From Myxococcales bacterium (GTDB lineage: Bacteria; Myxococcota_A; Polyangia; Polyangiales; Polyangiaceae), in NCBI GenBank assembly GCA_947473045.1, contig CANJCO010000021.1, positions 1 to 64,000 of the forward strand: 64,000 bases of DNA. Reading direction: 5' to 3'. The notes under the pieces were generated by a model that made no database searches, had not been told where the DNA came from, and saw nothing but the letters and a program-made list of their open reading frames with translations. How positions within the stretch are numbered: position 1 is the first letter of the stretch; each line of letters starts with the position of its first letter. Below are positions 5,018 through 60,726 of this stretch, piece by piece. Position numbers and translations under genes: made by a program.

Positions 5018-6540
5018 AGAGCTTCAAAATTGGGCATCTCGACGTCGGGCAGGACGCCCCCGTGTTCGTGATCGCCGAGCTGTCTGCCAATCACGGGCAG
5101 CGCAAGGACATCGCCCTCGCGACCATCGAGGCGGCGGCCCGGGCAGGCGCGAACGCCATCAAGCTTCAGACCTATACGCCCGACACGCTGACCCTCGCGA
5201 GCAGCGCGCCGCACTTCGTCGTGAAGACGAACAACGTGTGGGCTGGCCGAACCCTGCACGACCTCTACCGCGAAGCGATGACGCCGTGGGAGTGGCACGC
5301 CGAGCTCAAGGCCTGCGCCGAGTCTCTCGGTCTGCTGCTGTTCTCAACGCCGTTCGATCCGACGGCGGTCGAGTTCCTCGAAGGGCTCGATGTGCCCGCC
5401 CACAAGGTTGCGTCGTTTGAGCTCAACGACCTGCCGCTGGTGGAGCGCATGGCGCGCACCGGCAAGCCGATGATCATGTCGACGGGCATGGCGACCCTGG
5501 GCGATATCGAGGCCGCGATCGCCGTGTGTCGCGGGGCCGGAAACGAGCAGATCGCGCTGCTGCGTTGCGTGTCGTGTTATCCGGCCAAGCCCGAGTCGAT
5601 GGCGCTGTCGAGTTTCGGCGTGCTCGCGGGCTTCGGCACGGTGGTCGGGCTGTCGGACCACACGCGCGACGCAACGGTCGCGATCGCGTCTGTCGCGCTC
5701 GGCGCGAAGCTCATCGAAAAACACTTCATCGTAGACCGCAGCGTTGGCGGGCCGGACTCGTTTTTCTCGCTGGAGCCCTCGGAGTTTCGCGCGATGGTGG
5801 GCGCAGTGCGTGATGCCGAAAAAGCGCTTGGGAAGCCTCGCTTCGGCCCCTCGCCCGATGAGCTCGCGAGCACGGCGTTTCGTCGCTCGCTCTTCGTCGC
5901 GCGCGACGTTCCCGCGGGCACGGTGCTCACGTGCGACGATGTTCGCAGCGTGCGCCCGTCCGCGGGTCTGGCGCCGCGCTACATGCCCGCGATTCTGGGC
6001 CGCGTCGCCACGGTCGCGCTGACCGCCGCCACTCCGCTTGCGTGGGACATGGTGGGCGCGGCGCCTGCGCCCCGCGTGAGCCTGCGCGCAGCGAACGGCG
6101 ACGACAGCGAGCGGCTGCTTGGCTGGCGAAACGATCCGGAGACCCGCGCCATGTCGCTGACGAACGAGGTGATCGGACTCGACCAGCACGCGGTGTGGCT
6201 GCACCAGTCGCTGCTTTCCGAAGCGCGCCGCCTGACGATCGCCGAAGCGGGAGGTGCGCCGGTCGGCACGGTGCGGCTCGATCGCCACAGCCATGGAGAG
6301 TGGGAGGTGTCGCTAACGGTTGCGCCCGAAGCCCGCGGGCAGGGTTATGCGCCCGATTTGCTGCGCGCTGCGGAGGCGCTCGCTCGCGAGATCGGAGCGG
6401 TGCGGCTGGTGGCGGTCATCAAGGCCGAGAACGAGGCGAGCGTGCGAGCCTTCAAACGGGCTGGCTACTACGGGTTCGCGGCGCACGCGAAGTCGCCGGG
6501 AGTGCTCGCCTGCGAGCGCCGAATCGTCGATTACGCCTGA
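5014..6540 (+). CDS. pseI: Nonulosonic acid synthase (PseI/NeuB family) fused to a GNAT N-acetyltransferase
   Basis: A 508-residue two-activity protein. Residues 1-285 are a NeuB-type TIM barrel (IAELSANHGQ near the start, IKLQTYTPDT, HFIVDRSVGGPDSFFS), about 287-345 a SAF antifreeze-like domain (SLFVARDVPAGTVLT), and about 353-508 a GNAT acetyltransferase with WRNDPETR and the acetyl-CoA motif PEARGQGYA. The first part condenses a 6-deoxy-diacetamido hexose with PEP; the second resembles PseH, which N-acetylates the 4-amino group two steps earlier. NeuB enzymes are usually about 340-350 residues, so the extra 155 residues are a true fusion and no frame break is seen. Last gene of the operon, ATGA overlap with pseG. 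No CMP-transferase (PseF) follows. Confidence 0.9.
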   Translation: MKSFKIGHLDVGQDAPVFVIAELSANHGQRKDIALATIEAAARAGANAIKLQTYTPDTLTLASSAPHFVVKTNNVWAGRTLHDLYREAMTPWEWHAELKACAESLGLLLFSTPFDPTAVEFLEGLDVPAHKVASFELNDLPLVERMARTGKPMIMSTGMATLGDIEAAIAVCRGAGNEQIALLRCVSCYPAKPESMALSSFGVLAGFGTVVGLSDHTRDATVAIASVALGAKLIEKHFIVDRSVGGPDSFFSLEPSEFRAMVGAVRDAEKALGKPRFGPSPDELASTAFRRSLFVARDVPAGTVLTCDDVRSVRPSAGLAPRYMPAILGRVATVALTAATPLAWDMVGAAPAPRVSLRAANGDDSERLLGWRNDPETRAMSLTNEVIGLDQHAVWLHQSLLSEARRLTIAEAGGAPVGTVRLDRHSHGEWEVSLTVAPEARGQGYAPDLLRAAEALAREIGAVRLVAVIKAENEASVRAFKRAGYYGFAAHAKSPGVLACERRIVDYA

Positions 6541-6747
6541 GTCCGCCGCTCCGCTCGTTTGCGCCGCCGTCGACGCTGCTTCTGATATTGTAAAAGTGCT
6601 GCGCGCGCCCCCTGAACGTTCGACGCGCGCGGAGCAACAGGGCAGGCGGGCTGTCTTCTGAGGGCCGAAGGGTGACTGCAGTGCTGCGTGATCGATCGGT
6701 AACCGCCCCGCGCCCCGCGCGCCTTCGAGCAGCCATGCTGGAGGCCC

Positions 6748-9282
6748 ATGCCCAACGTACGTGACGCCTCGCTCGCGAGCCGTGTGGCGACGTGGGGGCT
6801 GCTGGCGTCGGTGGCGGCCAGCGTGCTCGCGCTCGGCTCCCTCGAGCCGTACGTGCTTTGCGCAGTGGCCCTCGCGCTCGGCGCGGCCTCGGCCGGCCTC
6901 TTGCTCAGCGCACCTCGTGAGCGGGCTCTTCCCCGCCAAAGCGCCGTGCTGCTCATCTGCACGGGCGCGGCGCTCACGCTGTTTACCGCGCTGCAGGCCG
7001 TTCCGCTCCCGTTGGCCGTTGTTGCACGGCTGTCGCCCCACGCTGCGGACGTCTGGCGTCGCGCGCTTTCTCCGCTCTCCGAGGGGCCGCCGGGCTGGGT
7101 CACCCTGTCGCTCGATCCGGTCGCGACGCGAATCGAGGTGCTTCGCGGCGTGGCGTACTGCGCGACCCTGATCGGTGCGCTGGCCGTCGCGCGCCGGCGC
7201 GATGGCGCTGTGGTGCTCCAGCGCGCCATTGTGTCGACGGGCGCTGTCGTGGCGCTCGTCACGCTCGTGCACTACGCGCTCGGCGTCGAGCTCGTTTACG
7301 GATTCGTCGCGCCGAAGACGGGCGTGTCGATCATCGCGCCGCTGCTCAACCAGAACCACCTCGGCGCGTATCTTGATGTCTCTCTGATCGTGGCGCTGGG
7401 GTCGATTCTCTCGCCTCGCCCGATCGCTCCGCGCGCCATCCTGATTTCCGTGGTGGTCGTGCTCGCGGCAGTCGAAGTGTGGCTGGCATCGCGCGGTGCG
7501 ACTGCGGCGATGGTGCTCGGGTGCGCGCTCTGCGTGTCGGCTGCCGTGTTCGCGAAGCGTGATCGGGAGCGGCTGCGGGTGGTGCTCCCGGTTGCTCTGG
7601 TGACGGGGGGCGTCGTCATGGGGGTGCTCGCGATGAGCGCTGCTTCGGTTCAGGGCCTCGCCGACTCCGACGTCTCGAAGCTCTCGATTGCTCGCGATGT
7701 CTTTCGCCGGATGGTGGCCTCGTATCCGTTTTTTGGAGCGGGGCGCGGGGCCTTCGAGTCGACGTTTCCCGAATTTCGCGATCGGGCCGCCTTCGATGTG
7801 TTCACGCATCCCGAAAATATCGCCGCTCAGTGGTGCGCCGAGTGGGGCGTGCCGGTGGCCGTCGTCGCATTTTGCGCCATCGCGTTCGCGCTTCGGCCGC
7901 GCACGGTGATCGCGCGCGACGCCTCCGCAGTCGGGCCGTGGGCCGCGCTCATCGCGGTTGGACTGCAAAACCTCGTCGATTTTAGTCTCGAAGTGCCAGC
8001 CGTTGTTCTTTCGCTCGTGCTGTGCGCCGCCATCGTGGTCGCTGGCGCGCAAGTGGCTCCGCGGTCGGCGCCAGCGCCTGCGTTTGCGCGCGCGCTGAGT
8101 CATTCGCGGATCATCGCTGCGGTTGTGGCCGTTGCAACCCTCGCGGGGCTTTCGCTGGTACTCCCGGTGGCGCGACGCGAGCTGCTTTCCGAACAAAAGC
8201 GACTTCGCCTCCGCGCCTCCGCCGCCGGTCCGCGCGATGCCGCGCTCGTCGCCGACCTGCGCGAAGCGATGCTCGATCATCCGGCCGAGCCCTATTTTGC
8301 CTACCTGGGCGCGGCGCACGCCGTCGCAGGTGATCAAACGCCCATGCCCTGGGTCGAAAAGACGCTGGAGCGTTCGCCGTCGTACGCTCCGGCGCACCTG
8401 CTGCTTGCGCGGTGGCTTCGCCGCCGTTCGCCCTCGCAGGCGCGGCTTGAATACCGGCTCGCAGCAGAGGGCGGGATGGGAGGCGCGTCTGCTTCCGAGT
8501 TCGTGTCGCTGGTTTCGGGCCCGGAGGCTGCGTTCGAGCTGGTTCCCGCGGGAGCGAAGGGAGCGGCCACGCTGGCGATCCTGTCGGCGACCGTCGAGCC
8601 GCGCATGCCCGCGACGGCGATGCGCATCGATCGGGAGATCCTTCTGCGCACGCCCGGGCACCCGGAGGCCGCGCAGCGTGAATCGAGTCGGTCGCGCGCC
8701 GACATCGTCGAGGGCGAGGGCGCGCCGTGGTGTGCGGCCTCGCCGCAAGCATGCGCTCGCGACGCTCTCGCCGCCTCGAGGCGGGCACAGGTCAGTGCTC
8801 CCACCAACTTTCGGGGCTTTGAAGATCAGGCGAGGGTGCTCTGCGCGACCGGAGCGTGCGCGCAGGGCGCCGATCTGCTTCGCCAGGCATGTGAGGTGGC
8901 GCGAGAGCGCGAGCGCTGCCTTGATGTCATCGCGACCCTCGCCGTCGAAACGCATCAGGATACGGTCGCCACGACCGCGATCGAGGTGCTCGCGCGAGGA
9001 CCGTGCATCGAAGACGCCACGTGCGCTGGACGCCTCCTGCGTGCGGCCACGCTCGAGCAGCAGCGCGGCAACGCCAACCGCGGACTCGTCTACCTTCGTC
9101 GCGCGGCGTCGGCGGCGCCCGATCGCGATCCTGTCATCGAGGCGCTCGCCAACGCGGCCTCGGCCGCAGGGCTGCACTCCGAGGCGCTCGAGCGCTACGC
9201 GACCCTGCTCGCGCGCTCGCCCGGTGACGTTCGCTGGTCGGCGCATGTCGCCGCGGAACGCGCCGCGCTGGCCGCGCGCTGA
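6748..9282 (+). CDS. O-antigen ligase/polymerase-like membrane protein with C-terminal TPR-like domain
   Basis: An 844-residue protein. The first ~450 residues are strongly hydrophobic with about ten predicted membrane segments. Between them lies the hallmark periplasmic loop region of the Wzy_C/O-antigen ligase family, with NQNHLGAYLD and HPENIAAQWCAEWGVP. Roughly residues 480-844 are soluble, Ala/Arg-rich and helical (for example RRAASAAPDRDPVIEALA), resembling degenerate TPRs. WaaL/Wzy-type enzymes act at the periplasmic face of the inner membrane, joining or polymerising lipid-linked glycan; which of the two cannot be told. A TGGAGG sits just before the ATG with a short spacer. It is separated from the nonulosonate operon by 207 bases, which hold no visible gene. 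Confidence 0.8.
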   Translation: MPNVRDASLASRVATWGLLASVAASVLALGSLEPYVLCAVALALGAASAGLLLSAPRERALPRQSAVLLICTGAALTLFTALQAVPLPLAVVARLSPHAADVWRRALSPLSEGPPGWVTLSLDPVATRIEVLRGVAYCATLIGALAVARRRDGAVVLQRAIVSTGAVVALVTLVHYALGVELVYGFVAPKTGVSIIAPLLNQNHLGAYLDVSLIVALGSILSPRPIAPRAILISVVVVLAAVEVWLASRGATAAMVLGCALCVSAAVFAKRDRERLRVVLPVALVTGGVVMGVLAMSAASVQGLADSDVSKLSIARDVFRRMVASYPFFGAGRGAFESTFPEFRDRAAFDVFTHPENIAAQWCAEWGVPVAVVAFCAIAFALRPRTVIARDASAVGPWAALIAVGLQNLVDFSLEVPAVVLSLVLCAAIVVAGAQVAPRSAPAPAFARALSHSRIIAAVVAVATLAGLSLVLPVARRELLSEQKRLRLRASAAGPRDAALVADLREAMLDHPAEPYFAYLGAAHAVAGDQTPMPWVEKTLERSPSYAPAHLLLARWLRRRSPSQARLEYRLAAEGGMGGASASEFVSLVSGPEAAFELVPAGAKGAATLAILSATVEPRMPATAMRIDREILLRTPGHPEAAQRESSRSRADIVEGEGAPWCAASPQACARDALAASRRAQVSAPTNFRGFEDQARVLCATGACAQGADLLRQACEVARERERCLDVIATLAVETHQDTVATTAIEVLARGPCIEDATCAGRLLRAATLEQQRGNANRGLVYLRRAASAAPDRDPVIEALANAASAAGLHSEALERYATLLARSPGDVRWSAHVAAERAALAAR

Positions 9283-9295
9283 GCGACGCGAGGGC

Positions 9296-11254
9296 TCAGT
9301 TGACGAACTTCGACGTTCGGCTGCTTGGCGGCGCGGGCGTCTTTCGCTCCGTGTCGTCGCTCTTCGCGCGGGCGGGGGACGCATATTCGGGGACGAGCCT
9401 GGCGAACGCCCGCTTGACGGCCTCGCGGTCGCCGCCGTCGCTCACCGAGAGCAGCTCGCTCAGGCTGTTTTGCACGCGCTCCCAGTCGTAGGGGCGAAAT
9501 CGGCCAACGAAAATTTTCGGGTGGCGCGTCTTGTCGGCGTGTTCGTCGTCGGTGGCGAGCTCCTCGAAGAGCTTCTCGCCCGCGCGCATGCCGGTGAACT
9601 TGATCTCGATGTCTGCGCCGGGCGTCAGGCCCGAGAGCGTGATGAGGTCGCGCGCCAAATCGACGATTTTGACGGGATCTCCCATATCGAGCACGAAGAT
9701 CTCTCCACCTTCTCCCATGGCGCCGGCCTGCATGATCAGCTGGCACGCCTCGGGGATCGTCATGAAGTAGCGCTTCATCTCGGGGTGCGTGACCGTGACG
9801 GGGCCGCCCGCGACGATCTGCTCCTGAAACAGAGGAATGACGCTGCCGGCGCTGCCGAGAACATTGCCGAAGCGAACGGTCACGTACTGGGTTCGGCTGC
9901 GCTGCGAGAGCGCCTGCACGTAAATCTCCGCGGCGCGCTTCGACACGCCCATGATTGACGTCGGATTCACGGCCTTGTCGGTCGAGACCATGACGAACTT
10001 CTCGACGCCGTGCTCGCTGGCGAGGTCAGCAACCTTCTTTGAGCCGAAAACGTTGTTTTTGATCGCCTCGCCGGAGTTTTCTTCCATCATCGGCACGTGC
10101 TTGTGGGCGGCGGCGTGAAACACGACCTGCGGCGCCTCGCTCTGAAAAATAGCCGCCATGCGCTGCGTGTCGCAGACGTCGGCCACACACGGCACGACGG
10201 GCACGTCGGGGAACTCGCGCACCAGCAGGCGGTGGACGTGAAAAAGGTTGTTCTCCGCCTGCTCGACCAGGAGAATTTTGCGGGGACCGAAGCGCGCGAT
10301 CTGGCGACACAACTCGCTGCCGATGCTGCCGCCGGCGCCCGTGACCATCACTACGCGCGAGCGGAGAAAGTTGCTGACTGACTCGGCGTCGAGCTGAACC
10401 GCGGCGCGACCGAGCAGGTCTTCGATCTTCACGCTTTGAAGCTGACTGACCATCACGCGGCCGTCGATCAGCCGATCTACGCCGGGGAGCGTGCGCACGC
10501 GCGCCTTCGTGGTCGCGCACATGTCGACGATGCGGCGCATGTCCTTGCCGCTGAGCGACGGGATCGCGAGGATGACCTCTTCGACGCCGAGGCTCTCGAC
10601 GAGGCGTCCGATGCTGGAGATCTCGCCGAGCACCGGGACGCCGTGAATGCGCTCGCCGAGCTTCATGCGACTGTCGTCGACGAACCCGACCGGCTCGTAT
10701 TTCGCGGAGTGCGTGCGCGTGATCTCGCGCATCAGCATTTCTCCGGCATCTCCTGCGCCCACCACGATCAGCTTCTTGCGCCCGCCGCTCGTGGCCCCCG
10801 CCGCCTGAACTGCGAGCTCGCGGATCGCACGAATGCTGAACCGCACGCCGCCTACGATCACGATGCTTCCGAGGAGGTCCATGACGTAGACGCTGCGCGG
10901 CAACCCGGTGGGGCCGAGGAGGGTGACGACGAGCGCGAACAGCGCTGTCGACACGAGCGCGGCTTTCACGAGGCCGATCAGGTCGCGCGAGCTGGAGTAG
11001 CGCCAGAGCCCGTGAAACAGGCCAAAGGCAGCGTGAACAGCCGAGCGCACCACGAGCAGCGGAATGAGCCAGCGCGGAATGTTGTGAAGGTAAAGGCCGG
11101 GGATCGCGAACTCGAACCGGAGCAGAAACGCGGAGTAGAGCGAGGCGGTCCACATCGCGAGGTGGGCGGCGATCACGAACGCCCTGCGGTAGACCAAAAA
11201 GACGCTCTTCATTTCCCTGTGCGATTGGTTGCGGCCGGGGCGATCGGAATTCAT
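9296..11254 (-). CDS. Membrane-bound nucleotide-sugar 4,6-dehydratase (WbpM/CapD/PglF family)
   Basis: About 652 residues. The N-terminus has four hydrophobic helices, then a CoA-binding-like Rossmann domain (IVVGAGDAGEMLMRE), then the catalytic SDR domain with TGAGGSIGSE and STDKAVNPTSIMGVSK. The Met in place of the catalytic Tyr is the normal SMK triad of WbpM and PglF, which convert UDP-GlcNAc to the 4-keto-6-deoxy sugar used for UDP-QuiNAc, FucNAc or bacillosamine. It ends 13 bases from the O-antigen-ligase-like gene on the other strand and is divergent from the phosphoglycosyl transferase gene at 11302. Start: an upstream in-frame TTG at 11266 exists, but ATG 11254 (MNSDRPG) is preferred; a later ATG at 11212 is also possible. 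Confidence 0.9.
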   Translation of the reverse strand: MNSDRPGRNQSHREMKSVFLVYRRAFVIAAHLAMWTASLYSAFLLRFEFAIPGLYLHNIPRWLIPLLVVRSAVHAAFGLFHGLWRYSSSRDLIGLVKAALVSTALFALVVTLLGPTGLPRSVYVMDLLGSIVIVGGVRFSIRAIRELAVQAAGATSGGRKKLIVVGAGDAGEMLMREITRTHSAKYEPVGFVDDSRMKLGERIHGVPVLGEISSIGRLVESLGVEEVILAIPSLSGKDMRRIVDMCATTKARVRTLPGVDRLIDGRVMVSQLQSVKIEDLLGRAAVQLDAESVSNFLRSRVVMVTGAGGSIGSELCRQIARFGPRKILLVEQAENNLFHVHRLLVREFPDVPVVPCVADVCDTQRMAAIFQSEAPQVVFHAAAHKHVPMMEENSGEAIKNNVFGSKKVADLASEHGVEKFVMVSTDKAVNPTSIMGVSKRAAEIYVQALSQRSRTQYVTVRFGNVLGSAGSVIPLFQEQIVAGGPVTVTHPEMKRYFMTIPEACQLIMQAGAMGEGGEIFVLDMGDPVKIVDLARDLITLSGLTPGADIEIKFTGMRAGEKLFEELATDDEHADKTRHPKIFVGRFRPYDWERVQNSLSELLSVSDGGDREAVKRAFARLVPEYASPARAKSDDTERKTPAPPSSRTSKFVN

Positions 11255-50503: not shown

Positions 50504-52012
50504 ATGCCGAAGTACGTTGGAATCGATATCGGACAAGCGAGCGTCAAGGTCGCGGTCGTGAAGGTGGCCTATCGCAAGACCACCATAGAAGGGCTCGCGA
50601 GCGCGCCCCTCGGAGACGACGTCGCGGCGGCTCTGCGCTCGGCGCTTCAGGAGGCGCTCGGAGGCGGCGGAGCGGGCGATGCGGTCGCGACGTCGATCGA
50701 GGGTGTGAAGGTCATCGTTCGATCGGTGCACGTGCCCGCGAGCGTGCAAAAGCAGCTCGCCGAGGTCCTTCCGTTTGAGCTCGAGTCGCAAACTCCGTTC
50801 GACATTGCCGACGCTGTCATCGACTACCGCATTCAGAAATCAAGCACCCGCGAGCGGTTGTCGATCCTCTCGGTGCTCGCGCGAACCGAAGAGGTGCGGG
50901 CGCGAATCGAGCTCGTCAAAGCTGCCATCGGCGTCGAGCCCGAGCGCGTCGGCGCGGGCGCGTTTCCGCTCGCCAATCTGCTCGAATTTACGCCGCAGAT
51001 CGCAGCCGACGGGGTCGCGTGCATTCTCGATTTGGGGGCGCGCTCGAGCGACCTGCTCGTGATGGTCGCCGGTGAGCCGGTGTTCGCGCGCACCCTGTCG
51101 CTCGGTACCGACGGACTGCCCGCCACGGCGTCGAAGCTGGCCCGCGAAATACGGGTTTCGATCGCTGCCTATCGCGCGCAGGGCGGGGCCGCACCGTCGG
51201 TCGTGCATATTACGGGCGGCGGCGCGTTCGTATCGGGCGCCGAGTCGTTTCTGTCGGCGGAGCTCGAGTTGCCGGTGGAGCGACTGCCGCTGCCGAACCT
51301 CGAGATGACTGCGCGCGCGACGGCGAAGCTCGAGGACGCGCCTCTGTACGCAAAATCCCTCGCGCTTGCCCTGGGGCTCGGCGTGCGCGGCGGCAACTTC
51401 GATTTGCGCCGAGGGGCGCTGGCGTACGAGCGTGGCTATGGCTGGCTCAGCGACCGAATTCCTGTGCTCGCAGGCCTCGGTGTCGCGCTCGCGGCGAGCT
51501 TTTTCTTTTCTTCGTGCGCGTCTTATCTCGCAGCGACAAAGGAGCAGGCCACGCTCGCTTTCGCGCTGGAGAGTGTCAGTCAGGAGGTGCTCGGCGAACA
51601 GACCTCCAGCGTCGCCAGGGTGAAGGAGTTGCTCGCCCAGCAGGGAGCTCCCGACGAGGACCCAAAGCCGCACGCCGACGCGTTCGATGTGATGGTTCGG
51701 CTCTCCGAGCATATTCCGCAATCGATGATTCACGATATCGAGGAGCTCGACGTGCAGAAAGGGCATGCCACTGTTCACGGCATCGCCGGATCGACGGCCG
51801 ACGCCAAATCGATCGAGGCGTCGCTCAAGAACGAGGCCTGCTTCTCAGACGTGAAGGTCACGCGAACCAACCAGGTGGTCGGCGGTGAGCGGCAGAAGTA
51901 CTCACTCGAGTTCGACGTGAAATGCCCCGAAGATCAGAAGGGCAAAAAGAAAGACAAACCTGGAGAGAGCTCCGCTGGGTCGGCCTCGGCGGCTTCGCCG
52001 GGAGGTAAGTAA
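50504..52012 (+). CDS. gspL: Type II secretion protein GspL (PilM-like cytoplasmic domain)
   Basis: A 502-residue bitopic protein. The cytoplasmic actin-like part (YVGIDIGQASVKVAVVK, LPFELESQTPFDIADAVIDY) recalls PilM, the membrane helix is about 325-345 (VLAGLGVALAASFFFSSC), and the periplasmic ferredoxin-like end (HDIEELDVQKGHATVHG) is followed by a Lys/Ser-rich tail. GspL recruits GspE to the membrane and pairs with GspM. Nothing is missing. Preceded by gspK; gspM starts two bases after its stop. Confidence 0.88.
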   Translation: MPKYVGIDIGQASVKVAVVKVAYRKTTIEGLASAPLGDDVAAALRSALQEALGGGGAGDAVATSIEGVKVIVRSVHVPASVQKQLAEVLPFELESQTPFDIADAVIDYRIQKSSTRERLSILSVLARTEEVRARIELVKAAIGVEPERVGAGAFPLANLLEFTPQIAADGVACILDLGARSSDLLVMVAGEPVFARTLSLGTDGLPATASKLAREIRVSIAAYRAQGGAAPSVVHITGGGAFVSGAESFLSAELELPVERLPLPNLEMTARATAKLEDAPLYAKSLALALGLGVRGGNFDLRRGALAYERGYGWLSDRIPVLAGLGVALAASFFFSSCASYLAATKEQATLAFALESVSQEVLGEQTSSVARVKELLAQQGAPDEDPKPHADAFDVMVRLSEHIPQSMIHDIEELDVQKGHATVHGIAGSTADAKSIEASLKNEACFSDVKVTRTNQVVGGERQKYSLEFDVKCPEDQKGKKKDKPGESSAGSASAASPGGK

Positions 52013-52013
52013 A

Positions 52014-52607
52014 ATGGCCTTCGCTTTCGTATCCCGGTTGAGCCTCTCGTCGCGCGAGCAGCGCCTCGTGCGCGTGCTTTTGGCGGTGGCGATCGTTACT
52101 TTGTTCATTGGCATTCCGCTCGGCGTCGAGTCCGTTGTCTCGACCCGTCGCGCCGACAACGCCGACATGCGGCAGACGCTCGCCGACGTGCAGGCCGCGC
52201 GCGTTCAGATTCGCGAAAAACAGGCGAAGAAGGAGGCGATCGTCGCGCGGTACCGCGAGCGGGCCCCCGAGCTTGGAGCGTTTCTCGAGCAGGGCGCGCG
52301 CAAGCAGAAGCTCGACGTCACCGACAGCACCGACAGGCCGGCGTTGCCGATCGGTAAGCGGTATATCGAGCGCACGACCGTAATTCATATGAAGAAATCC
52401 GGGTTGCTCGCGCTGTCGAAGTTCTTCGAGTCGATCGAGCAGAGCGCGGCGCCGCTGTCGATCAGCCGTCTCAGCCTCCGCAGACGCATGGGCGAACCCG
52501 ACGCCTACGATGTGGAGGTCGGGGTTTCGGCCTGGGATCGCACCGAGGCCGCGACGACGCCTCCCCCGAAAGCAAGCGCTTCGGCAGCTACCGGAAAGGC
52601 GCCCTGA
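52014..52607 (+). CDS. gspM: Type II secretion protein GspM
   Basis: A 197-residue protein with a short cytoplasmic N-terminus (SLSSREQRLVRVLLAVA), one transmembrane helix (VLLAVAIVTLFIGIPLGV), a periplasmic coiled coil (MRQTLADVQAARVQIREK) and a C-terminal ferredoxin-like domain (LLALSKFFESIEQSAAPLS). It stabilises GspL. Position between gspL and gspN supports the call; GspM sequences vary widely, so the name rests on layout as much as on sequence. Confidence 0.82.
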   Translation: MAFAFVSRLSLSSREQRLVRVLLAVAIVTLFIGIPLGVESVVSTRRADNADMRQTLADVQAARVQIREKQAKKEAIVARYRERAPELGAFLEQGARKQKLDVTDSTDRPALPIGKRYIERTTVIHMKKSGLLALSKFFESIEQSAAPLSISRLSLRRRMGEPDAYDVEVGVSAWDRTEAATTPPPKASASAATGKAP

Positions 52608-52608
52608 T

Positions 52609-53712
52609 ATGCTCGCGATTGTAAAAAAATGGGGTCCGCGCGCTGGCTACGGGGTGTTTTATCTCGTGTGTTTCGCCCTCTCGGCGTCGCTCCTGTTTCC
52701 CTATGAGATCCTCCGTCAGCGCATCGTCGCCGACTTCAACGCGCAGCAGCGCGCGACCGGCGCCCAGCAGGAGCTGTCGATCGACGAGCTGGGTTGGTAC
52801 TGGTTTACCGGCATTCGCGCCAAAGGCATTCGCCTGACGAGCGCACCGACGCCGCCGGCCAGGGAGCCCGCGGAGATCCGTATCGACGAGGCGCGCATTT
52901 CGGTGAGCGTGGCGTCGAAGCTCGTGGGCACCACGCGGGTGCTCTTCGACCTCGACGCGCTCGGCGGGCATGTCAAAGGCCAGTTCTCTGAGAGCGGAAG
53001 TGAGCGCGCGGTCGACAAGCCGGGCGGCGCCAAGGACGTTGTGCACAAAGACCGCGAGGTCGAGGTCGAGCTCGACGCCGTCGATCTCAAGCAGGTCGAC
53101 GCCCTCACGCAGGTGATCGGGCTCCCGCTCGAAGGGCGCGTCTCGGGTTCGGTTCGCCTCTTCATGCCCGAAGGCCACGCGTCGAAGGGCTCTGGCGCCG
53201 TGGATATCTCCGCGCAGGACGTGGCGATCGGCGACGGAAAGGCAAAGTTGAAGGGCGCTCTCGACTGGCCGAAGCTGACTGTCGGTGCGCTGTCGTTCGT
53301 GGCCGAGGCCAAGGACGGCGCCCTCAAGATTTCCAAGTTTGGCGCGAGTGGCAAGGATCTCGACTTGAGTGGCGATGGCAAAGTTCAGATGCGCGATCTT
53401 GCCAATGAGAGCTCGCTTGATATCAATGTCAAATTCAAGGTGAACGACAGCTATCGCGGCAAGAGTCCGATGACGACCGCCTTGTTCGGCGCGCCGGGCT
53501 CTCAAAAGGGCGGGGACGTCGAAATGGTGGTTCCGCAAATGCGGCAGGCCAAGCGGCCCGACGGCTTGTACGGCTTTCATATGCGCGGCTTGCTTGCGCG
53601 CCCCGACTTCGAGCCGCAGCCCTCCGGCGCGCTGGGATCGGCCACCGGGGCTCCCGGACTGCCGATGGGGCCAGGGGGCGGGGCGCTGCGTCCCGGAGGG
53701 TTCCAGCCGTGA
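52609..53712 (+). CDS. gspN: Type II secretion protein GspN
   Basis: A 367-residue protein of the delta-proteobacterial GspN type: an N-terminal membrane helix (VFYLVCFALSASLLFPYEI), then a beta-rich periplasmic part with repeating amphipathic strands (AVDISAQDVAIGDGKAKL, LSGDGKVQMRDLANESS) like an AsmA-type bridge. The C-terminus is Gly/Pro-rich (GAPGLPMGPGGGALRPGG). GspN is found in only some T2SS, where its role is unclear. Start ATG 52609; its stop overlaps the btpA-like GTG by four bases. Confidence 0.8.
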   Translation: MLAIVKKWGPRAGYGVFYLVCFALSASLLFPYEILRQRIVADFNAQQRATGAQQELSIDELGWYWFTGIRAKGIRLTSAPTPPAREPAEIRIDEARISVSVASKLVGTTRVLFDLDALGGHVKGQFSESGSERAVDKPGGAKDVVHKDREVEVELDAVDLKQVDALTQVIGLPLEGRVSGSVRLFMPEGHASKGSGAVDISAQDVAIGDGKAKLKGALDWPKLTVGALSFVAEAKDGALKISKFGASGKDLDLSGDGKVQMRDLANESSLDINVKFKVNDSYRGKSPMTTALFGAPGSQKGGDVEMVVPQMRQAKRPDGLYGFHMRGLLARPDFEPQPSGALGSATGAPGLPMGPGGGALRPGGFQP

Positions 53713-54473
53713 GCAAGTTGCTTATCGGCGTGATTCACCTGCCGCCGTTGCCGGGCAGTCCTCGTGCGTGGCCGCTGGCGCAGACGCTCGCGCAGGTGTC
53801 GCGCGACGCGCGCGCGCTCGCGGACGCAGGGTTCGATCGGGTGATGGTCGAGAACTTCGGCGACGCGCCTTTTTTCGCAGAGCGCGTGCCGCCTGTGACG
53901 GTCGCGGCGATGACGGCGTGCCTGCTCGCCGCGCGGGAGGCCGGCGCCGCGATTGGTGTCAACGTGCTGCGAAATGATGTTGAAAGTGCGCTGTCGATCG
54001 CGGCGTGCGTGGGCGCTGTTTGTGTCCGCGTGAACGTGCATATCGGCGCGCGTGTCACCGATCAGGGCCTCGTCCAGGGGCGCGCTGCCGAAACGCTTCG
54101 TCTGCGCCGCGCGCTGGGCGCCGACCACGTCGCGATATGGGCCGACGTCGACGTCAAACACTCGGCGCCGCTCGGGCCGAGACCCATCGAGGGAGAGGTC
54201 GCCGATGCCGTCGACCGGGGACTCGCCGACGCAGTGCTCGTGACCGGATCGGGCACGGGGCACGCTGTCGACATGGCGACCCTCGCGGCAGTCAGGCGCG
54301 CGACGGCGGCGCCGGTCTATGTCGCCAGCGGCGTTGATCACGGCTCGGTAGCGAGCATTCTCGCGGGGTGCGACGGCGCGATAGTGGGCAGCGCGCTTCG
54401 GGTCGGCGGCAAGGCGGGAGGCCCGATCGACGCTGCGCTCGCCGAATCGTTTATGCGCCGCGCCCGACCTTAA
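53709..54473 (+). CDS. BtpA/SgcQ family TIM-barrel protein
   Basis: A 254-residue protein of the BtpA family. IGVIHLPPLPGSPRA at the N-terminus, GFDRVMVENFGDAPFF and GADHVAIWADVDVKHSAPL are characteristic. The C-terminal PVYVASGVDHGSVASIL and DGAIVGSALRVGGKAGGPID resemble phosphate-binding TIM-barrel loops. BtpA was first linked to photosystem I assembly; other members are uncharacterised, possibly aldolases or nucleosidases. GTG overlaps gspN by four bases, so it is read with the T2SS operon. Its stop overlaps the convergent decarboxylase stop by four bases (TTAA). Confidence 0.85.
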   Translation: MSKLLIGVIHLPPLPGSPRAWPLAQTLAQVSRDARALADAGFDRVMVENFGDAPFFAERVPPVTVAAMTACLLAAREAGAAIGVNVLRNDVESALSIAACVGAVCVRVNVHIGARVTDQGLVQGRAAETLRLRRALGADHVAIWADVDVKHSAPLGPRPIEGEVADAVDRGLADAVLVTGSGTGHAVDMATLAAVRRATAAPVYVASGVDHGSVASILAGCDGAIVGSALRVGGKAGGPIDAALAESFMRRARP

Positions 54474-55897
54474 GCGCCGGCGCGCGCGACGGCGAGGGCG
54501 ACGTCTTCGATGAGCATCGCCACGCGATCGGCGTGCGTGCGAAACGATAGAATGCATACGCGCAAAACGAAGCGCCCGCGGGCCATCGTGCCGGTCACGA
54601 ACACGCGCTGCCTGCGGTTGATGTCTTTCATGAGCGCGCGATTGAGTTTGTCGAGCGCGCGCGCGTCCATGCCCTCGCGGCTCAGGCAAAACGCGAAGAG
54701 CGACAGCTCGGGCTCCGCGACGATTTCGACGCCGGGCAACTGTCGAATGGCCTCGCAGGCGGCTTGCGCGAGGTCGAGCTTTTCGTCGAGCGCCGCCCGA
54801 AACACGCCGGCGCCGTGCAGCTTGAGCGGGAGCCAAACCCGCAGTCCGCGAAAGTCGCGTGACAGCTCGGGACCGAGATCGCAGAAGTCGGCGAAGTCGA
54901 CATCGGGCTGCATCGGCGGCAGGTAGGTCGCGTGCATGGCATGCGCGGCGCGCAGCCGTTCGGCGTCGCGCACCACGAGGGCTCCTGTGCCATAGGGCAA
55001 AAACAGGCTCTTGTGCGGATCGAGCGTGACGGAGTCGGCGCGCTCGAGACCTCGCAGCGCGCGCTTGCCCCGCGCTGTCATCGCGAAGAAGCCCCCGTAG
55101 GCGCCGTCGACGTGAAACCAAAGGGCATTGCCGGCTGCCACGTCCGCGACGGCGTCTAAATCGTCGATCGCCCCCGTGTTCGTGGTGCCGGCGCTGGCGA
55201 CCACCAGAAACGGCCTGTTTCCCTCGTGCAGATCGCGTGCGATCGCCTCGCGCAACCCGGACGCGCTCAGACGGAAGCGCGCGTCGGTGGCGACAACGCG
55301 CACCTGATCGTCGCGAAATCCGGCGAAGCGCGCCGCCTTCAGCACGGAGTGGTGCGCCTGATCGGAGACGTAGACCACGCCGTCGTCAAAACGGTCTCCC
55401 AGTTTGGTCTGGCGAGCGGTGACGAGCGCGATGAGGTTCGACATCGAGCCTCCCGACGTCAGTACGCCGCCGGGCCTCGTGGGGCCCTGATAGCCGACGA
55501 TCTCACAGAGCCATTGCACGACATTGGCCTCGAGCTGCGCGAGCCCAGGCGCCGCAATCCATACTCCGACATATCGATTGACCGAATCGGCGATCAGATT
55601 GGCGACTGCGGCGTGGAGCAGTCCGCCGCCGGGAATGTAGGCCATGTATCCCGGAGAGGCCGTATTGAAGGTGCGCGGAATGAGCTTTGAGAACAGCAGC
55701 TTTGCGAGGGTCTCGAACGGCTCGCCAGTCTCGGGGAGCGACTCGCGCAGCGACTTCGCGAGTTTTCGGCCGCCGCCGGTGGCGTGCATCGGCTGCTTCG
55801 GGAGCGACGCAACGTGGCGCACGATCTCGCGGGTGGCCAGCGCGACCATGGCCCGAAAATCGTGCTCCGACAGCTCGAGCGGCGATGCTTGCGTCAC
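54470..55897 (-). CDS. PLP-dependent amino acid decarboxylase (group II, AADC-like)
   Basis: A 475-residue fold-type I decarboxylase. The PLP lysine is in VTLDPHKSLFLPYG and the cofactor Asp in HVDGAYGGFF; SGGSMSNLIALVTAR and VVASAGTTNTGAID are typical of the group II (aromatic amino acid/glutamate/diaminobutyrate) family. It removes the carboxylate of an L-amino acid; which one is not evident. GTG start at 55897 gives a four-base overlap with the ATP-grasp gene, so it is the last member of a three-gene unit. An upstream in-frame ATG only adds codons that read the ATP-grasp gene in another frame. Confidence 0.9.
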   Translation of the reverse strand: MTQASPLELSEHDFRAMVALATREIVRHVASLPKQPMHATGGGRKLAKSLRESLPETGEPFETLAKLLFSKLIPRTFNTASPGYMAYIPGGGLLHAAVANLIADSVNRYVGVWIAAPGLAQLEANVVQWLCEIVGYQGPTRPGGVLTSGGSMSNLIALVTARQTKLGDRFDDGVVYVSDQAHHSVLKAARFAGFRDDQVRVVATDARFRLSASGLREAIARDLHEGNRPFLVVASAGTTNTGAIDDLDAVADVAAGNALWFHVDGAYGGFFAMTARGKRALRGLERADSVTLDPHKSLFLPYGTGALVVRDAERLRAAHAMHATYLPPMQPDVDFADFCDLGPELSRDFRGLRVWLPLKLHGAGVFRAALDEKLDLAQAACEAIRQLPGVEIVAEPELSLFAFCLSREGMDARALDKLNRALMKDINRRQRVFVTGTMARGRFVLRVCILSFRTHADRVAMLIEDVALAVARAGA

Positions 55898-56823
55898 CTG
55901 GGCGGTATCGCAGACTTCGCGGGTCGCGCCAAGCCGCCGAGGCCCGCGCCGCGCGCGATGCCCATGCCGACCGCGAAGCCCATCGAATAGCGAGCGTTGA
56001 TCTCGCTGCGCGCGCGGATCTGCGGCTCGCCGCTCTTGGCGCGCCACGTGAAGGCGTCGACTCCAAACGGGCCGAAGAACCCCGCGCCGCGCAGCGCGTG
56101 TGCTGCCTGTTGCAGCTGTTCAAACACGGCTTCGCGGAGCGCCTCCGAGACCTCGCCGTCGCGGACGCGCGCGCTCGCGATCCACGCTCCGCTGCGGTCG
56201 ACCTCCTGACGTGTGAGGGCTCCGGCGTGCAGCGCCCCGTCGCGCTCGATCGCTGCGTGCTGGGCGTATTCGCAGTCGATCGGAACGTTGGGCTCAATTT
56301 GGGCGCCGCCTTCGGCGATCCACCGGGGAAGAAAGGCAATATCGGCCTCGCGCGGCGACCTTGAGACGATCCGGTGACCGCGGCCGGCCATTCCGTACGA
56401 GCGCTTGATGCGCCAGGCGTCGCCGATTTCGGGGTCGAGGGCGAGGTGTGCGCGCGCGTCCGCGAGCGTCGACACAAAGCGTGCATGATGCATGGTTTGC
56501 CCGAGCGCCGCGGCGAACGAGCGCGCGTTCACCTTGCGCAGAACGTCCAGCGGCGGGCTCGGTTCGAGCTCGGCTCCGGCGCGCGCCAGTCGCGCGAGCG
56601 CTCGTGGCGTTGGGCAGAACGCGCGGCCGATCATCCCGCGCGCGGCGCCGGCGGGAGTGTCGTCGTCGACGCGCATGTCGCGATCGGCGAGCAGCTGCGC
56701 TGCGCACACGGTCTCGAGGCCGGCGAGCGCCCGCCGCACGCCCGCAGTCGGGCAGTAGCCGGGGCCGCGGGCCAGCTCGAGATCGCCGTCGAGGTTCAGC
56801 ACCCAGGCGTATCGGGTCGCCAT
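55894..56823 (-). CDS. ATP-grasp-like ligase, unknown substrate
   Basis: A 309-residue protein. The ATP-binding motif is WRIKRSYGMAGRGHRI with its lysine, followed by CEYAQHAAIERDGALH, GPFGVDAFTW and SEINARYSMGF, where Glu, Asn and Arg match the metal-binding end of ATP-grasp enzymes. The N-terminal part (YAWVLNLDGDLELARGPGY) is a non-standard pre-grasp domain. ATP-grasp ligases join a carboxylate to an amine, thiol or amino acid. Coupled to a PLP decarboxylase (4-base overlap) and a ferritin-like protein (28-base overlap), it probably works in a small-molecule pathway (inference). Start ATG 56823. Confidence 0.72.
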   Translation of the reverse strand: MATRYAWVLNLDGDLELARGPGYCPTAGVRRALAGLETVCAAQLLADRDMRVDDDTPAGAARGMIGRAFCPTPRALARLARAGAELEPSPPLDVLRKVNARSFAAALGQTMHHARFVSTLADARAHLALDPEIGDAWRIKRSYGMAGRGHRIVSRSPREADIAFLPRWIAEGGAQIEPNVPIDCEYAQHAAIERDGALHAGALTRQEVDRSGAWIASARVRDGEVSEALREAVFEQLQQAAHALRGAGFFGPFGVDAFTWRAKSGEPQIRARSEINARYSMGFAVGMGIARGAGLGGLARPAKSAIPPR

Positions 56824-57593
56824 GCTTCGAGCTCGTTCAGAAAATGTTCCGGCTGACCGGCGCGGGCGCGCGCTTGTCGCGCGAGCTGGGCGCCTCGCAT
56901 GAGCAGCGGCGTGAGCGGCGGAGGCAACGCGCGCCGCCACGTCTCGAAATCGAGGCGTCCGGCGAACCGCTCGAACCAGCTCACACCGAAGCGAACGTGC
57001 GCGATCTCCTCGAGGCCTACGAGCTCTTGCGCCCGCGCCCCTGCCGCGTCACCGACCTCCCGAAATTTCGCAGCGTACGTCGCCGCGTGTTCGAGGTTCG
57101 CGCTCTCGAGGCCGAGTCCCATCACCGCGAGAAATGCCGCGGGCGACTGCGCGGACGGAACGCGCTCCCAGAACCAGTCGCGCACGTCGAACGCGCCGAT
57201 CGCGAAGCCGAGGCGCTCGACTTGCTCGCGGTAGATGCGCATGTGGCGGATCTCGTCGCCGGCGATGCGCACGAGCCCCTGTCGGAACGCAGTCGGCGTT
57301 TCGGGGAAGGCGAGGAGCGCCCACGCCATCAGCTCGGCGGCTTGAAGCTCGTGATGAAAAAACGTGTGCATCGCGCGCGCCCGACCTTCTTCGCCCGACA
57401 GCCCGCGTGTCTTTTTTGCTCGCGCGACGACGCGCAGCTCCGCAGGCCGGCCCGGCGCATCCACGCGGAGAGGGGTCTGGGAAGGCTCGAAATCGAGGAG
57501 GTCGGGCGGAGCGGTCAGCTTTTGCTCGAGTGAAGTGGCGCGCACGTAGTCGAGCGCCCATCGGGCAGCCGTGCCGGAAGCGGGCTCGCTCAT
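56796..57593 (-). CDS. DUF455 ferritin-like protein
   Basis: A 265-residue protein of the DUF455 (ferritin-like/MiaE-related) type. Helical carboxylate- and His-bearing motifs in HTFFHHELQAAELMAW, IAGDEIRHMRIYREQ, SANLEHAATYAAKF and GLEEIAHVRFG resemble di-iron four-helix proteins, which might bind two metal ions. The N-terminal region (LEQKLTAPPDLLDFEPSQTP) is typical of the family. Reading starts at ATG 57593, divergent from rsmE. The 28-base overlap with the ATP-grasp gene implies coupled translation. Function of DUF455 is not established. Confidence 0.82.
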   Translation of the reverse strand: MSEPASGTAARWALDYVRATSLEQKLTAPPDLLDFEPSQTPLRVDAPGRPAELRVVARAKKTRGLSGEEGRARAMHTFFHHELQAAELMAWALLAFPETPTAFRQGLVRIAGDEIRHMRIYREQVERLGFAIGAFDVRDWFWERVPSAQSPAAFLAVMGLGLESANLEHAATYAAKFREVGDAAGARAQELVGLEEIAHVRFGVSWFERFAGRLDFETWRRALPPPLTPLLMRGAQLARQARARAGQPEHFLNELEAWRPDTPGC

Positions 57594-57639
57594 CGTCGTC
57601 ACTGTAGGCGAAGCGCGCCCGTTTGCGCGAGGCGTAGCG

Positions 57640-58425
57640 ATGCGCGTGCTATTGCACCGTTCCAACATGCCCCCCGCTCCCCGCACCCTCGACCCCGAGC
57701 TTCTCGTTCCGCTTGTTCACCCCCGCACGCTCGCGGTGGGCGAGACCATCGCACTCGAAGACCAACACGTACGGCAGCTCGCAGTGCGCGAGATCAACGT
57801 CAAAGAGACGTTTACGATCGTCGACGCCGCAGGCGTGAACTTTCGCGCCAGCCTGACGTCGGCCCGCGAGGCGTCGGTCTTCGAGCGCATGCGGTCGACG
57901 ACGGAGTCTCCCGCGCGAATTACGCTTGTTTGCGCGGTGCTCGCGCGTCAGCGAATGATCACGGTCGTGCAAAAAGCCACCGAGCTCGGCTGCGTGCGCG
58001 TGGTTCCTGTGCAGTCGGTGCACAGCGTTCAGTCCGCTGATCTCGAGAAAGAAAAGCCGTGGGCGTGGCCCGGGCAGGCCCTGCGCGCGAGCCGCCAGTG
58101 TCGACGTGCGTCGGTGCCCGAAGTGCTCGGCGTGACGCCGCTGCGCGCTGCGCTCGCTGCCGACTACTGGAAGGACGCGACTGCGCGCTACATGCTCGAC
58201 GATCGCGATGGCGCCCGCGATCCGTTCGCGGCGGCGCCGTCGTCGGGCGACTACGTGCTCGCGGTCGGGCCGGAAGGCGGTTGGTCGGACGCCGAGCGCG
58301 CGCAGCTTGAAAAGGCGGGCGCCGTGTCGCTTTCGCTTGGCTCGCGCGTCTTGCGCGCGGAAACGGCCGTGTATTCGGGGCTTACGATTTTGCAGCACCG
58401 CCTCGGCGATCTTCGGCCGCGCTGA
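57640..58425 (+). CDS. rsmE: 16S rRNA m3U1498 methyltransferase RsmE
   Basis: A 261-residue SPOUT methyltransferase that methylates U1498 of 16S rRNA. An N-terminal PUA-like domain (HVRQLAVREINVKETFTIVD) precedes the knot with KATELGCVRVVPVQS, VGPEGGWSDAERAQL and SLGSRVLRAETAV, the SAM-binding signature. GAGG is placed seven bases before the ATG at 57640, which is the preferred start (MRVLLHRSN). Followed by the isocitrate-lyase-like gene after 45 bases. Confidence 0.93.
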   Translation: MRVLLHRSNMPPAPRTLDPELLVPLVHPRTLAVGETIALEDQHVRQLAVREINVKETFTIVDAAGVNFRASLTSAREASVFERMRSTTESPARITLVCAVLARQRMITVVQKATELGCVRVVPVQSVHSVQSADLEKEKPWAWPGQALRASRQCRRASVPEVLGVTPLRAALAADYWKDATARYMLDDRDGARDPFAAAPSSGDYVLAVGPEGGWSDAERAQLEKAGAVSLSLGSRVLRAETAVYSGLTILQHRLGDLRPR

Positions 58426-58470: not shown

Positions 58471-60726
58471 ATGTCGACCTTCGACGAAGAGCTGCTTGCG
58501 ATGCGCGGTTGGTTCGAGAGCCCTCGTTTTGCGGGGCTCCGGCGGCTTTATTCACCGACTGAGGTCGTGCTGCAGCGCGGGGCGATAGCGACCGATTTTA
58601 CCGTCGCGCGCGACGCCGCGGTTGGTCTGTACGCGCGCCTGCGGGAGCTCTTCGCGCAGCGTGCTTCGATCACGACGTTCGGACCGTATTCACCGGGCCA
58701 GGCCATCGCCATCAAGCGCGCGGGCATCGAGGCCATCTATCTGGGCGGCTGGGCGACGAGCGCGAAGGGGTCGGCGAGTGAAGAGCCGGGGCCCGACCTC
58801 GCCAGCTATCCCCTCAGTCAGGTGCCCGACGAGGCCGCTCAGATCGTGCGCGCACTGCTCGTCGCCGACCGCAACCAGCGCCACGCCCGCGCACACATGA
58901 CCGAGGCGCAGCGCTCCGCGTCCGCCGTGGTGGATTATCGTCCGTTTATCGTCGCAGACGCCGATGCGGGGCACGGCGGCGAAGCGCACGTCCGCAATCT
59001 GGTGCGACGCTTCGTCGAAGCGGGCGTGCCTGCGGTGCACCTCGAAGACCAAAAGCCCGGCGCGAAAAAGGGCGGCCACCTCGCAGGAAAAGTGCTGGTC
59101 GCGCAGGACGAGCAGCTCAAGCGCCTGGGCGCTGCCCGCTTTCAACTCGACGTCATGCAGGTGCCGGGCATCGTCATCGCGCGAACTGACGCTGCCTCCG
59201 CGACGCTGCTCGACGGGCGGAGCGACGAGCGCGATCAGCCCTTTATTCTCGGCGCCACCAACATCAACCTGCCGAGCTTCAAGGCCGCGTCGCTCGCGCT
59301 GCTCCGCCGAATGCACCGGCGCGGCGTCGAAGCGCTCACGGGGCACACGCTCTACGCGATGAGCGAGGACGAGCTCGCGGCCGCCGACGCGTGGCTCGAT
59401 GAGCAGGGTCTTGCCCCGCGAATTGAAGCCGCGGCGTCTGCGTGCCTCGCAGGCGGCCTCGCGGGCGCCCTCGCGCCGCTCGAGGCTCTCACCGGGACGC
59501 TCATCGAAATGTGGCAGGCGGATGCCTGCGTGCGCACTTACGGCGAAGCCGTGGCCGACGTGATGCGATTCCTCGCGAGTGAAGGCGTGCTCTTTCCGAT
59601 GTCGGAGCAGGAGTGGCTCGCGTTCGCGCAGCGCGCGTCGTTTTTTACGATCAATCAAAAGGCCCGCGACATGGGCGTTCATGTCGTGTGGGACTGCGAA
59701 CACGCAAAAACGCCCGACGGCTATTATCAAGTTCGCGGCGGAATCGATTATGCGATCGCGAAGGCGCTCTCGGCCGCGCCCTATGCAGACGTGCTGTGGA
59801 TGGAGACGAAGTCTGCCGATCTCCGCGAGGCCGAGCTGTTTGCCGCGGCAATTCACGCGCAATTTCCCGACAAAATGCTCGCCTACGATCTCAGCCCTTC
59901 GTTTAGCTGGGACACCACGGGGATGAGCGATGATGAGATGCGCCGGTTTCCCAAGGCGCTGGGCGAGCTCGGATATGTCTTTAACTTCATTACCTACGGA
60001 GGCCACCAGATCGACGGCCTTGCCGGCGAGGAGTTCGCCCTCGCGCTCGTAGAAGACGGCATGCTCGCGTTGGCGCGCCTGCAGCGAAAGTTCCGGCTGC
60101 TCGAGTCTCCGTATCGCAGCCCGCAGGCGCTCGTCGGCGGTCCGCGCGCCGATGCGGCGCTGCTCGCGATCTCGGGCCGAACGGCGACCACGCGGGCGAT
60201 GGCGCAAGTCGTCAGCCAGCAGCAGGCGGCGCTGCTCAGCGAGATCCCGCCGCGTCTGCTGACCGAGTGGCTCGAGCTGTGGCGCGCGCACCACGGGATT
60301 GGCCACGAACTCAAGGCCGCCCTCAGGCCCCACAGCGCAGGCTCTGAGCTCCTCGAGCTGTGCGTGCTGGGCCCACTGGGAGACAAAGCGGCGAACGTTA
60401 TTTTCGATACGATTCAAGATCGCCGAGGCCGAAAAATTCTCTCGGTTCGTGATCAGAATACGTTCAGCGAGGCCCTGCGCCGCCGACGCCTGATGACCCT
60501 CGCGCAGCTGTTTCTCGTGCATCGCTACAAGATCGACTCGGTGCACTACCTCACGCCCAACGAGGACAACCAGCGTCAGACTGCCGGCATGAAGGCCCGG
60601 CGCCTGTTTAGCGCGGTGAACGCCGAGGTCGGCGAGCTCATCGTCGCCGACGTCGATAAAGAGCGGGTGAAGGAGCTCGTCGACGGCGATCGGTCTGCGC
60701 TCATCGCGCTGATCACCAGCGCGTGA
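58471..60726 (+). CDS. Long-form isocitrate lyase family protein lacking the catalytic cysteine
   Basis: A 751-residue protein of the long isocitrate lyase type (compare mycobacterial ICL2). [34 protein letters not shown] and [13 protein letters not shown] are typical. The active-site loop, normally KKCGHLGGKV, reads [10 protein letters not shown]: Gly201 (codon 59071-59073, GGC) replaces the catalytic Cys. Both isocitrate and 2-methylisocitrate lyases need that cysteine, so activity as such is doubtful. The C-terminal half (residues ~400-751, e.g. [34 protein letters not shown]) completes the barrel and an extra domain. Its stop overlaps the next GTG by four bases. Confidence 0.88.

Follow-up and report, generated by a model that had tools for sequence, protein, structure and literature searches.

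A ferritin-like DUF455 protein and an unannotated ATP-grasp ligase as a conserved, often fused pair in Myxococcota

Di-iron oxidases encoded beside ATP-grasp ligases are a known theme, as exemplified by MboA with MboC and MboD in the mangotoxin system (PMC13185094). In the mangotoxin cluster (mboABCDEF), the oxidase has a heme-oxygenase-like fold (HDO) and is encoded next to ATP-grasp amino-acid ligases, in a cluster of five enzymes (PMC13185094). In another system, the ATP-grasp enzyme PGM1 attaches a non-protein amino acid to a core peptide (PMC8939145). The locus described here, in a 64,000-nucleotide stretch of DNA (referred to as the window), also has a putative di-iron oxidase encoded next to an ATP-grasp ligase. 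However, the oxidase is ferritin-like in this case, there is a single ligase, the two proteins are often fused, and no other genes are conserved with them.

The putative oxidase belongs to the DUF455 family (Pfam PF04305, COG2833), which is ferritin-like and has no assigned function, its likeness to the family being a sequence match above the cut-off together with the presence of the di-iron ligands. Members of DUF455 are found in bacteria and eukaryotes. Among open-access papers, none was found that assigns a function to DUF455 or that describes it with an ATP-grasp protein. The ferritin-like fold is common to DUF455 and the cyanobacterial aldehyde-deformylating oxygenase (ADO). ADO works with an acyl-ACP reductase, and not with an ATP-grasp enzyme.

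The source genome contains 5.15 Mb in 138 contigs, and its nearest sequenced kin are Myxococcota. The original prediction described three genes on the minus strand, with overlaps of 28 and 4 bases, and read them as a ferritin-like DUF455 protein, an ATP-grasp enzyme and a PLP decarboxylase. The arrangement is real, as checked with the ORF coordinates, and the three identities are borne out. The DUF455 protein (P0001, 265 residues, positions 56796–57593) matches PF04305 with an E value of 2.9e-43 (148.7 bits against a gathering score of 34.3, with 219 of 247 model positions matched), and its predicted fold is ferritin-like. The ATP-grasp ligase (P0002, 309 residues, positions 55894–56823) is from an unannotated family that the curated libraries miss, and its label is established by the AlphaFold2 fold and by comparisons with Foldseek and VIA-align. 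The third gene (positions 54470–55897, GTG start) encodes a group II PLP decarboxylase of 475 residues (P0003), which matches PF00282 with an E value of 5.1e-64 (216.8 bits, cut-off 27) and contains the DPHK motif with the PLP lysine. The DUF455 and ATP-grasp genes overlap at positions 56796–56823 (28 bases), and the ATP-grasp and decarboxylase genes at positions 55894–55897 (4 bases). The gene starts agree with those of the orthologues, and the DUF455/ATP-grasp overlap, or a similar one, recurs in many of these.

Two plus-strand genes flank the unit and lie outside it. The divergent neighbor is an RsmE-type rRNA methyltransferase ORF (PF04452, positions 57571–58425), with its true start probably at 57637 or 57664. 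The convergent neighbor is a BtpA/SgcQ family gene (PF03437, positions 53709–54473). Neither was found beside the DUF455/ATP-grasp pair in relatives. Further out on the plus strand, a long member of the isocitrate lyase family (751 residues) is located in the region 58471–60726, and a PALP-fold gene comes after it with a 4-base overlap. The region 50504–53712, which ends just ahead of the BtpA gene, has ORFs that resemble GspL, GspM and GspN of type II secretion by eye; the final ORF of this region has no Pfam match.

The AlphaFold2 model of the DUF455 protein (pLDDT 93.6) has a ferritin-like fold with four long helices. The predicted four-helix bundle contains the di-iron ligands in the order E, ExxH, E, ExxH, which is the order in ADO as well. 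The six predicted ligands, E82, E114xxH117, E163 and E196xxH199 (positions 56997–57350, minus strand), are invariant across 53 aligned homologues. When 110 homologues are considered, including the fused proteins, five of the six are invariant and H199 is kept in all but one. Judged by sequence, these ligands speak in favor of metal binding by DUF455.

The closest structural matches of the model, with the program VIA-align, are PA4880, bacterioferritin and rubrerythrin (Z scores of 15–17, maximum 16.8), and ADO is matched with a Z score of 14.5 over a longer stretch of 186 residues. Matches to solved structures indicate the fold here, not the function. In sequence, DUF455 has no significant match to any solved structure, which sets it apart from ADO. 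In view of the top matches, DUF455 could be a rubrerythrin- or bacterioferritin-like handler of peroxide or iron, with the pair acting in redox or iron homeostasis and the ATP-grasp protein making a cofactor or a tag. Ferritin-like folds are also used for iron storage and peroxide reduction, and a lone DUF455 gene in Sinorhizobium comes after a peroxiredoxin gene. However, the matched proteins are short bundles, all di-iron bundles score alike, and the alignment with ADO is longer. A detoxifying protein fused to a ligase would also be unusual. We consider this role unlikely.

Lone DUF455 proteins encoded on Sinorhizobium or Azospirillum plasmids are approximately 30% identical, and no annotated ATP-grasp gene adjoins the one that was inspected. 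In the pSymB replicon of Sinorhizobium meliloti (L283, positions 5351–8112), the lone homologue is flanked on its strand by the peroxiredoxin gene before it and by a gene for an M23 peptidase after it, in a context unlike that in Myxococcota. There is also a second, more distant DUF455-like family in Myxococcota (G178:C141, G204:C35, G303:C246, G311:C455 and G148:C68), encoded mostly beside the main DUF455 gene. The match in this family begins at about residue 71–75, and the ORFs have 327–492 residues.

The ATP-grasp protein has no Pfam match even at an E value of 1 and no relevant NCBIfam match. Its AlphaFold2 model, based on 56 homologues (mean pLDDT 93.4), has a clear ATP-grasp fold. The model matches PurK with an E value of 8.7e-12 in Foldseek, and the ATP-grasp protein 3wvr with a Z score of 19.8 in VIA-align (3.6 Å over 268 residues). 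The nearest solved folds in VIA-align are those of PGM1, BesA and a Streptomyces peptide ligase, and the PGM1/BesA-type peptide ligases (3wvr, 8yi6 and 8ynd) are the top matches, with Z scores of 18–20 over 261–276 residues. The Mg and ATP residues are conserved between P0002 and these ligases. However, the sequence identity is only 14–17%, and P0002 is shorter. In a weak match from a profile search, BesA has an E value of 0.015, tied with PurK. Across the 56 homologues, D256, N276 and R278 are invariant, E274 is either Glu or Asp, and K140 is present in 50. The catalytic residues K140, D256, E274 and N276 are encoded at positions 55996–56406 (minus strand), with R278 just outside.

A Planctomycete homologue of P0002 scores 25.8 bits against PF02222, below the cut-off of 27. 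Sequence matches of P0002 to MalK and acetate kinase in the Protein Data Bank are weak and were judged to be due to chance. A lone relative of the ATP-grasp protein of the fused form, with 403 residues, is encoded in Parabacteroides distasonis (L280, NZ_OY725768.1, positions 8001–9032). It is 30% identical (E value 9e-27), is annotated as a hypothetical protein, and has an esterase gene after it. Its family is also present in Prevotella and Phocaeicola, with no DUF455 within the match.

The DUF455 and ATP-grasp genes occur together. Among 59 related genomes, ATP-grasp is found in 36 and DUF455 in 37, with both in 36, DUF455 alone in one and ATP-grasp alone in none (Fisher p 2.6e-15, with shared ancestry ignored). 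Across 282 Myxococcota genomes, ATP-grasp is found in 135 and DUF455 in 146; both are present in 128, neither in 129 and a single gene in 25, counts that rest on an E value threshold of 1e-10 and on draft genomes. The distance matrices of the two proteins are correlated with an r of 0.79, and none of 2000 permutations gave a value as high.

The two genes are also adjacent. A scan of the genome contigs with a single ATP-grasp sequence found nothing, and an ATP-grasp alignment as the query found 149 related stretches, the best 80 of which, species-level contigs from Myxococcota and Planctomycetota, make up the sample for adjacency. DUF455 is located upstream of ATP-grasp on the same strand in 75 of these 80 contigs, and it always comes first. 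It is directly upstream in 74 (one natural fusion counted), the exception being L177, where the genes are 3.1 kb apart. The distance from the DUF455 stop codon to the ATP-grasp match is between –19 and +40 bases in 71 of the 75 contigs. Three of the remaining five contigs start at a contig end, and L126 and L132 alone are truly without a nearby DUF455 gene. In some genomes that hold both genes they are unlinked (G133, G069, G053 and G014), and in one locus (L091, positions 7712–11120, in G048) a hydrolase-like gene, which clusters with alpha/beta-hydrolase-like ORFs, is located between them. Overall, the association of DUF455 with ATP-grasp is far beyond chance.

Clustering of the neighbors in the best 80 contigs and 40 more loci found no further conserved gene and no electron-donor gene. 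Such a scattered context without pathway neighbors would fit a stand-alone modification enzyme, with the pair acting on a macromolecule (a protein, a tRNA or a lipid head group) instead of a free small molecule, and some ATP-grasp enzymes are known to modify proteins. On the other hand, no conserved small precursor gene adjoins the pair, and the predicted ATP-grasp structure is compact and nearest to small-molecule and peptide ligases. Modification of a macromolecule is, in our assessment, quite improbable. A graspetide-type RiPP system was rejected, as no short ORF located up to 900 bases from the pair is common to more than three loci. A defense system was also rejected, with no PADLOC match for DUF455, ATP-grasp or the fusion.

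In at least 56 other Myxococcota genomes, DUF455 and ATP-grasp are present in one open frame of 627–1372 codons, as counted by hand from both matches reporting the same frame. For 18 of these fusions re-read from the DNA, DUF455 is N-terminal and ATP-grasp is C-terminal, with no stop codon between them. Planctomycetes bacterium Pla163 (L165) has its own independent fusion, of 701 codons, in a clade where the genes are otherwise split. Six changes between the fused and split states are required by the DUF455 tree, three of them forced by well-supported branches. These fusions are strong evidence for a common function. Since the two proteins are fused in dozens of other bacteria, they almost certainly cooperate and work as one module. 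Because the curated libraries miss the ATP-grasp domain, annotation of the fused proteins would give just "DUF455 family", and the partnership is therefore easily overlooked.

The decarboxylase has a different distribution. The closest solved structure to P0003 is the group II aromatic amino-acid decarboxylase 4obu (E value 1.7e-68), and 7xin is also matched (3.3e-56), both over the full domain. The scores against the NCBIfam equivalogs are all far under the cut-offs, and the substrate is not assignable from them. Matches to SspA and DndA are weak and reflect general similarity of the PLP fold. Orthologues of P0003 (46–72% identical) are present in 13 relatives, including the same genus, and none of them is beside the pair. 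Three of the 13 genomes (G022, G025 and G046) do not have the pair, and the orthologue loci share no conserved neighbors. The linkage of all three genes expected from the original prediction is thus not seen in relatives, and the trio arrangement is not conserved. The positions of the orthologues rule out the decarboxylase as a core member, leaving it as an optional or passenger gene.

In a few relatives (L102, L114, L118, L120, G146 and G014), the gene directly upstream of the pair encodes a decarboxylase of a different subfamily, approximately 35% identical to P0003. L120 is the same contig as G043, and in G014 the decarboxylase gene is upstream of ATP-grasp only, with DUF455 elsewhere. Of the 37 relatives with the pair, 11 have this subfamily, against 0 of the 22 others (p 0.004, with kinship ignored). 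Within the best 80 contigs, all decarboxylase-linked loci belong to the group closest to the window, which has 5 linked cases in 22 (counting the window itself) against 0 in the other 59 (p 0.001, with kinship ignored). The linked cases that were placed on the DUF455 tree are located within the well-supported clade that contains the window.

These observations, together with the 4-base overlap at this locus, would fit a three-enzyme pathway in which a required decarboxylase makes an amine, the ligase couples it and DUF455 carries out an oxidation. However, most pair-holding genomes have no decarboxylase adjoining the pair, the P0003 orthologues are all elsewhere and also in pair-less genomes, and the p values do not take relatedness into account. 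We give such an obligatory pathway only a small probability. A decarboxylase has thus become associated with the pair at least twice, in different arrangements, although most pairs have none. This suggests an optional amine source, a role that is possible because a few members of the DUF455 clade of the window have the second subfamily upstream of the pair.

The best reading that we infer is a two-step module of ligase and oxidase yielding a small oxidized amide. The conserved residues, the PGM1/BesA-like folds and the theme of oxidases beside ATP-grasp ligases are the grounds for proposing that a ligase and an O2-dependent oxidase act on the same small molecule. The ATP-grasp half would use ATP to activate a carboxylate, in the form of an acyl phosphate, and would join it to an amine to give an amide or a short peptide-like product. 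The DUF455 half, with a predicted di-iron center like those of bacterioferritin and ADO, would use O2 to oxidize the substrate or the product of the ligase. The overlapping genes here and the fusions elsewhere would keep the two halves together, perhaps with channeling, and the non-core decarboxylase may supply the amine in this genome. We regard the chance that DUF455 and ATP-grasp are two halves of one such enzyme system, a ligase and an O2-dependent di-iron oxidase, as about even. The compact small-molecule pathway of the original prediction is plausible for these two proteins, given their co-occurrence, adjacency and fusions, but does not extend to the decarboxylase, which is not in the conserved unit.

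Somewhat more tentatively, the union of an ATP-grasp ligase with a ferritin-like di-iron oxidase could be a new enzyme type, making one widespread oxidized amide by a self-contained, two-step route. If true, this enzyme type would be present in about half of the sampled Myxococcota and extend into Planctomycetota, and this would be the first function for DUF455. The recently exploited HDO and ATP-grasp gene clusters would then have a ferritin-like counterpart. The natural fusion offers a biochemical hypothesis that can be tested, and a construct in which one gene would provide both activities.
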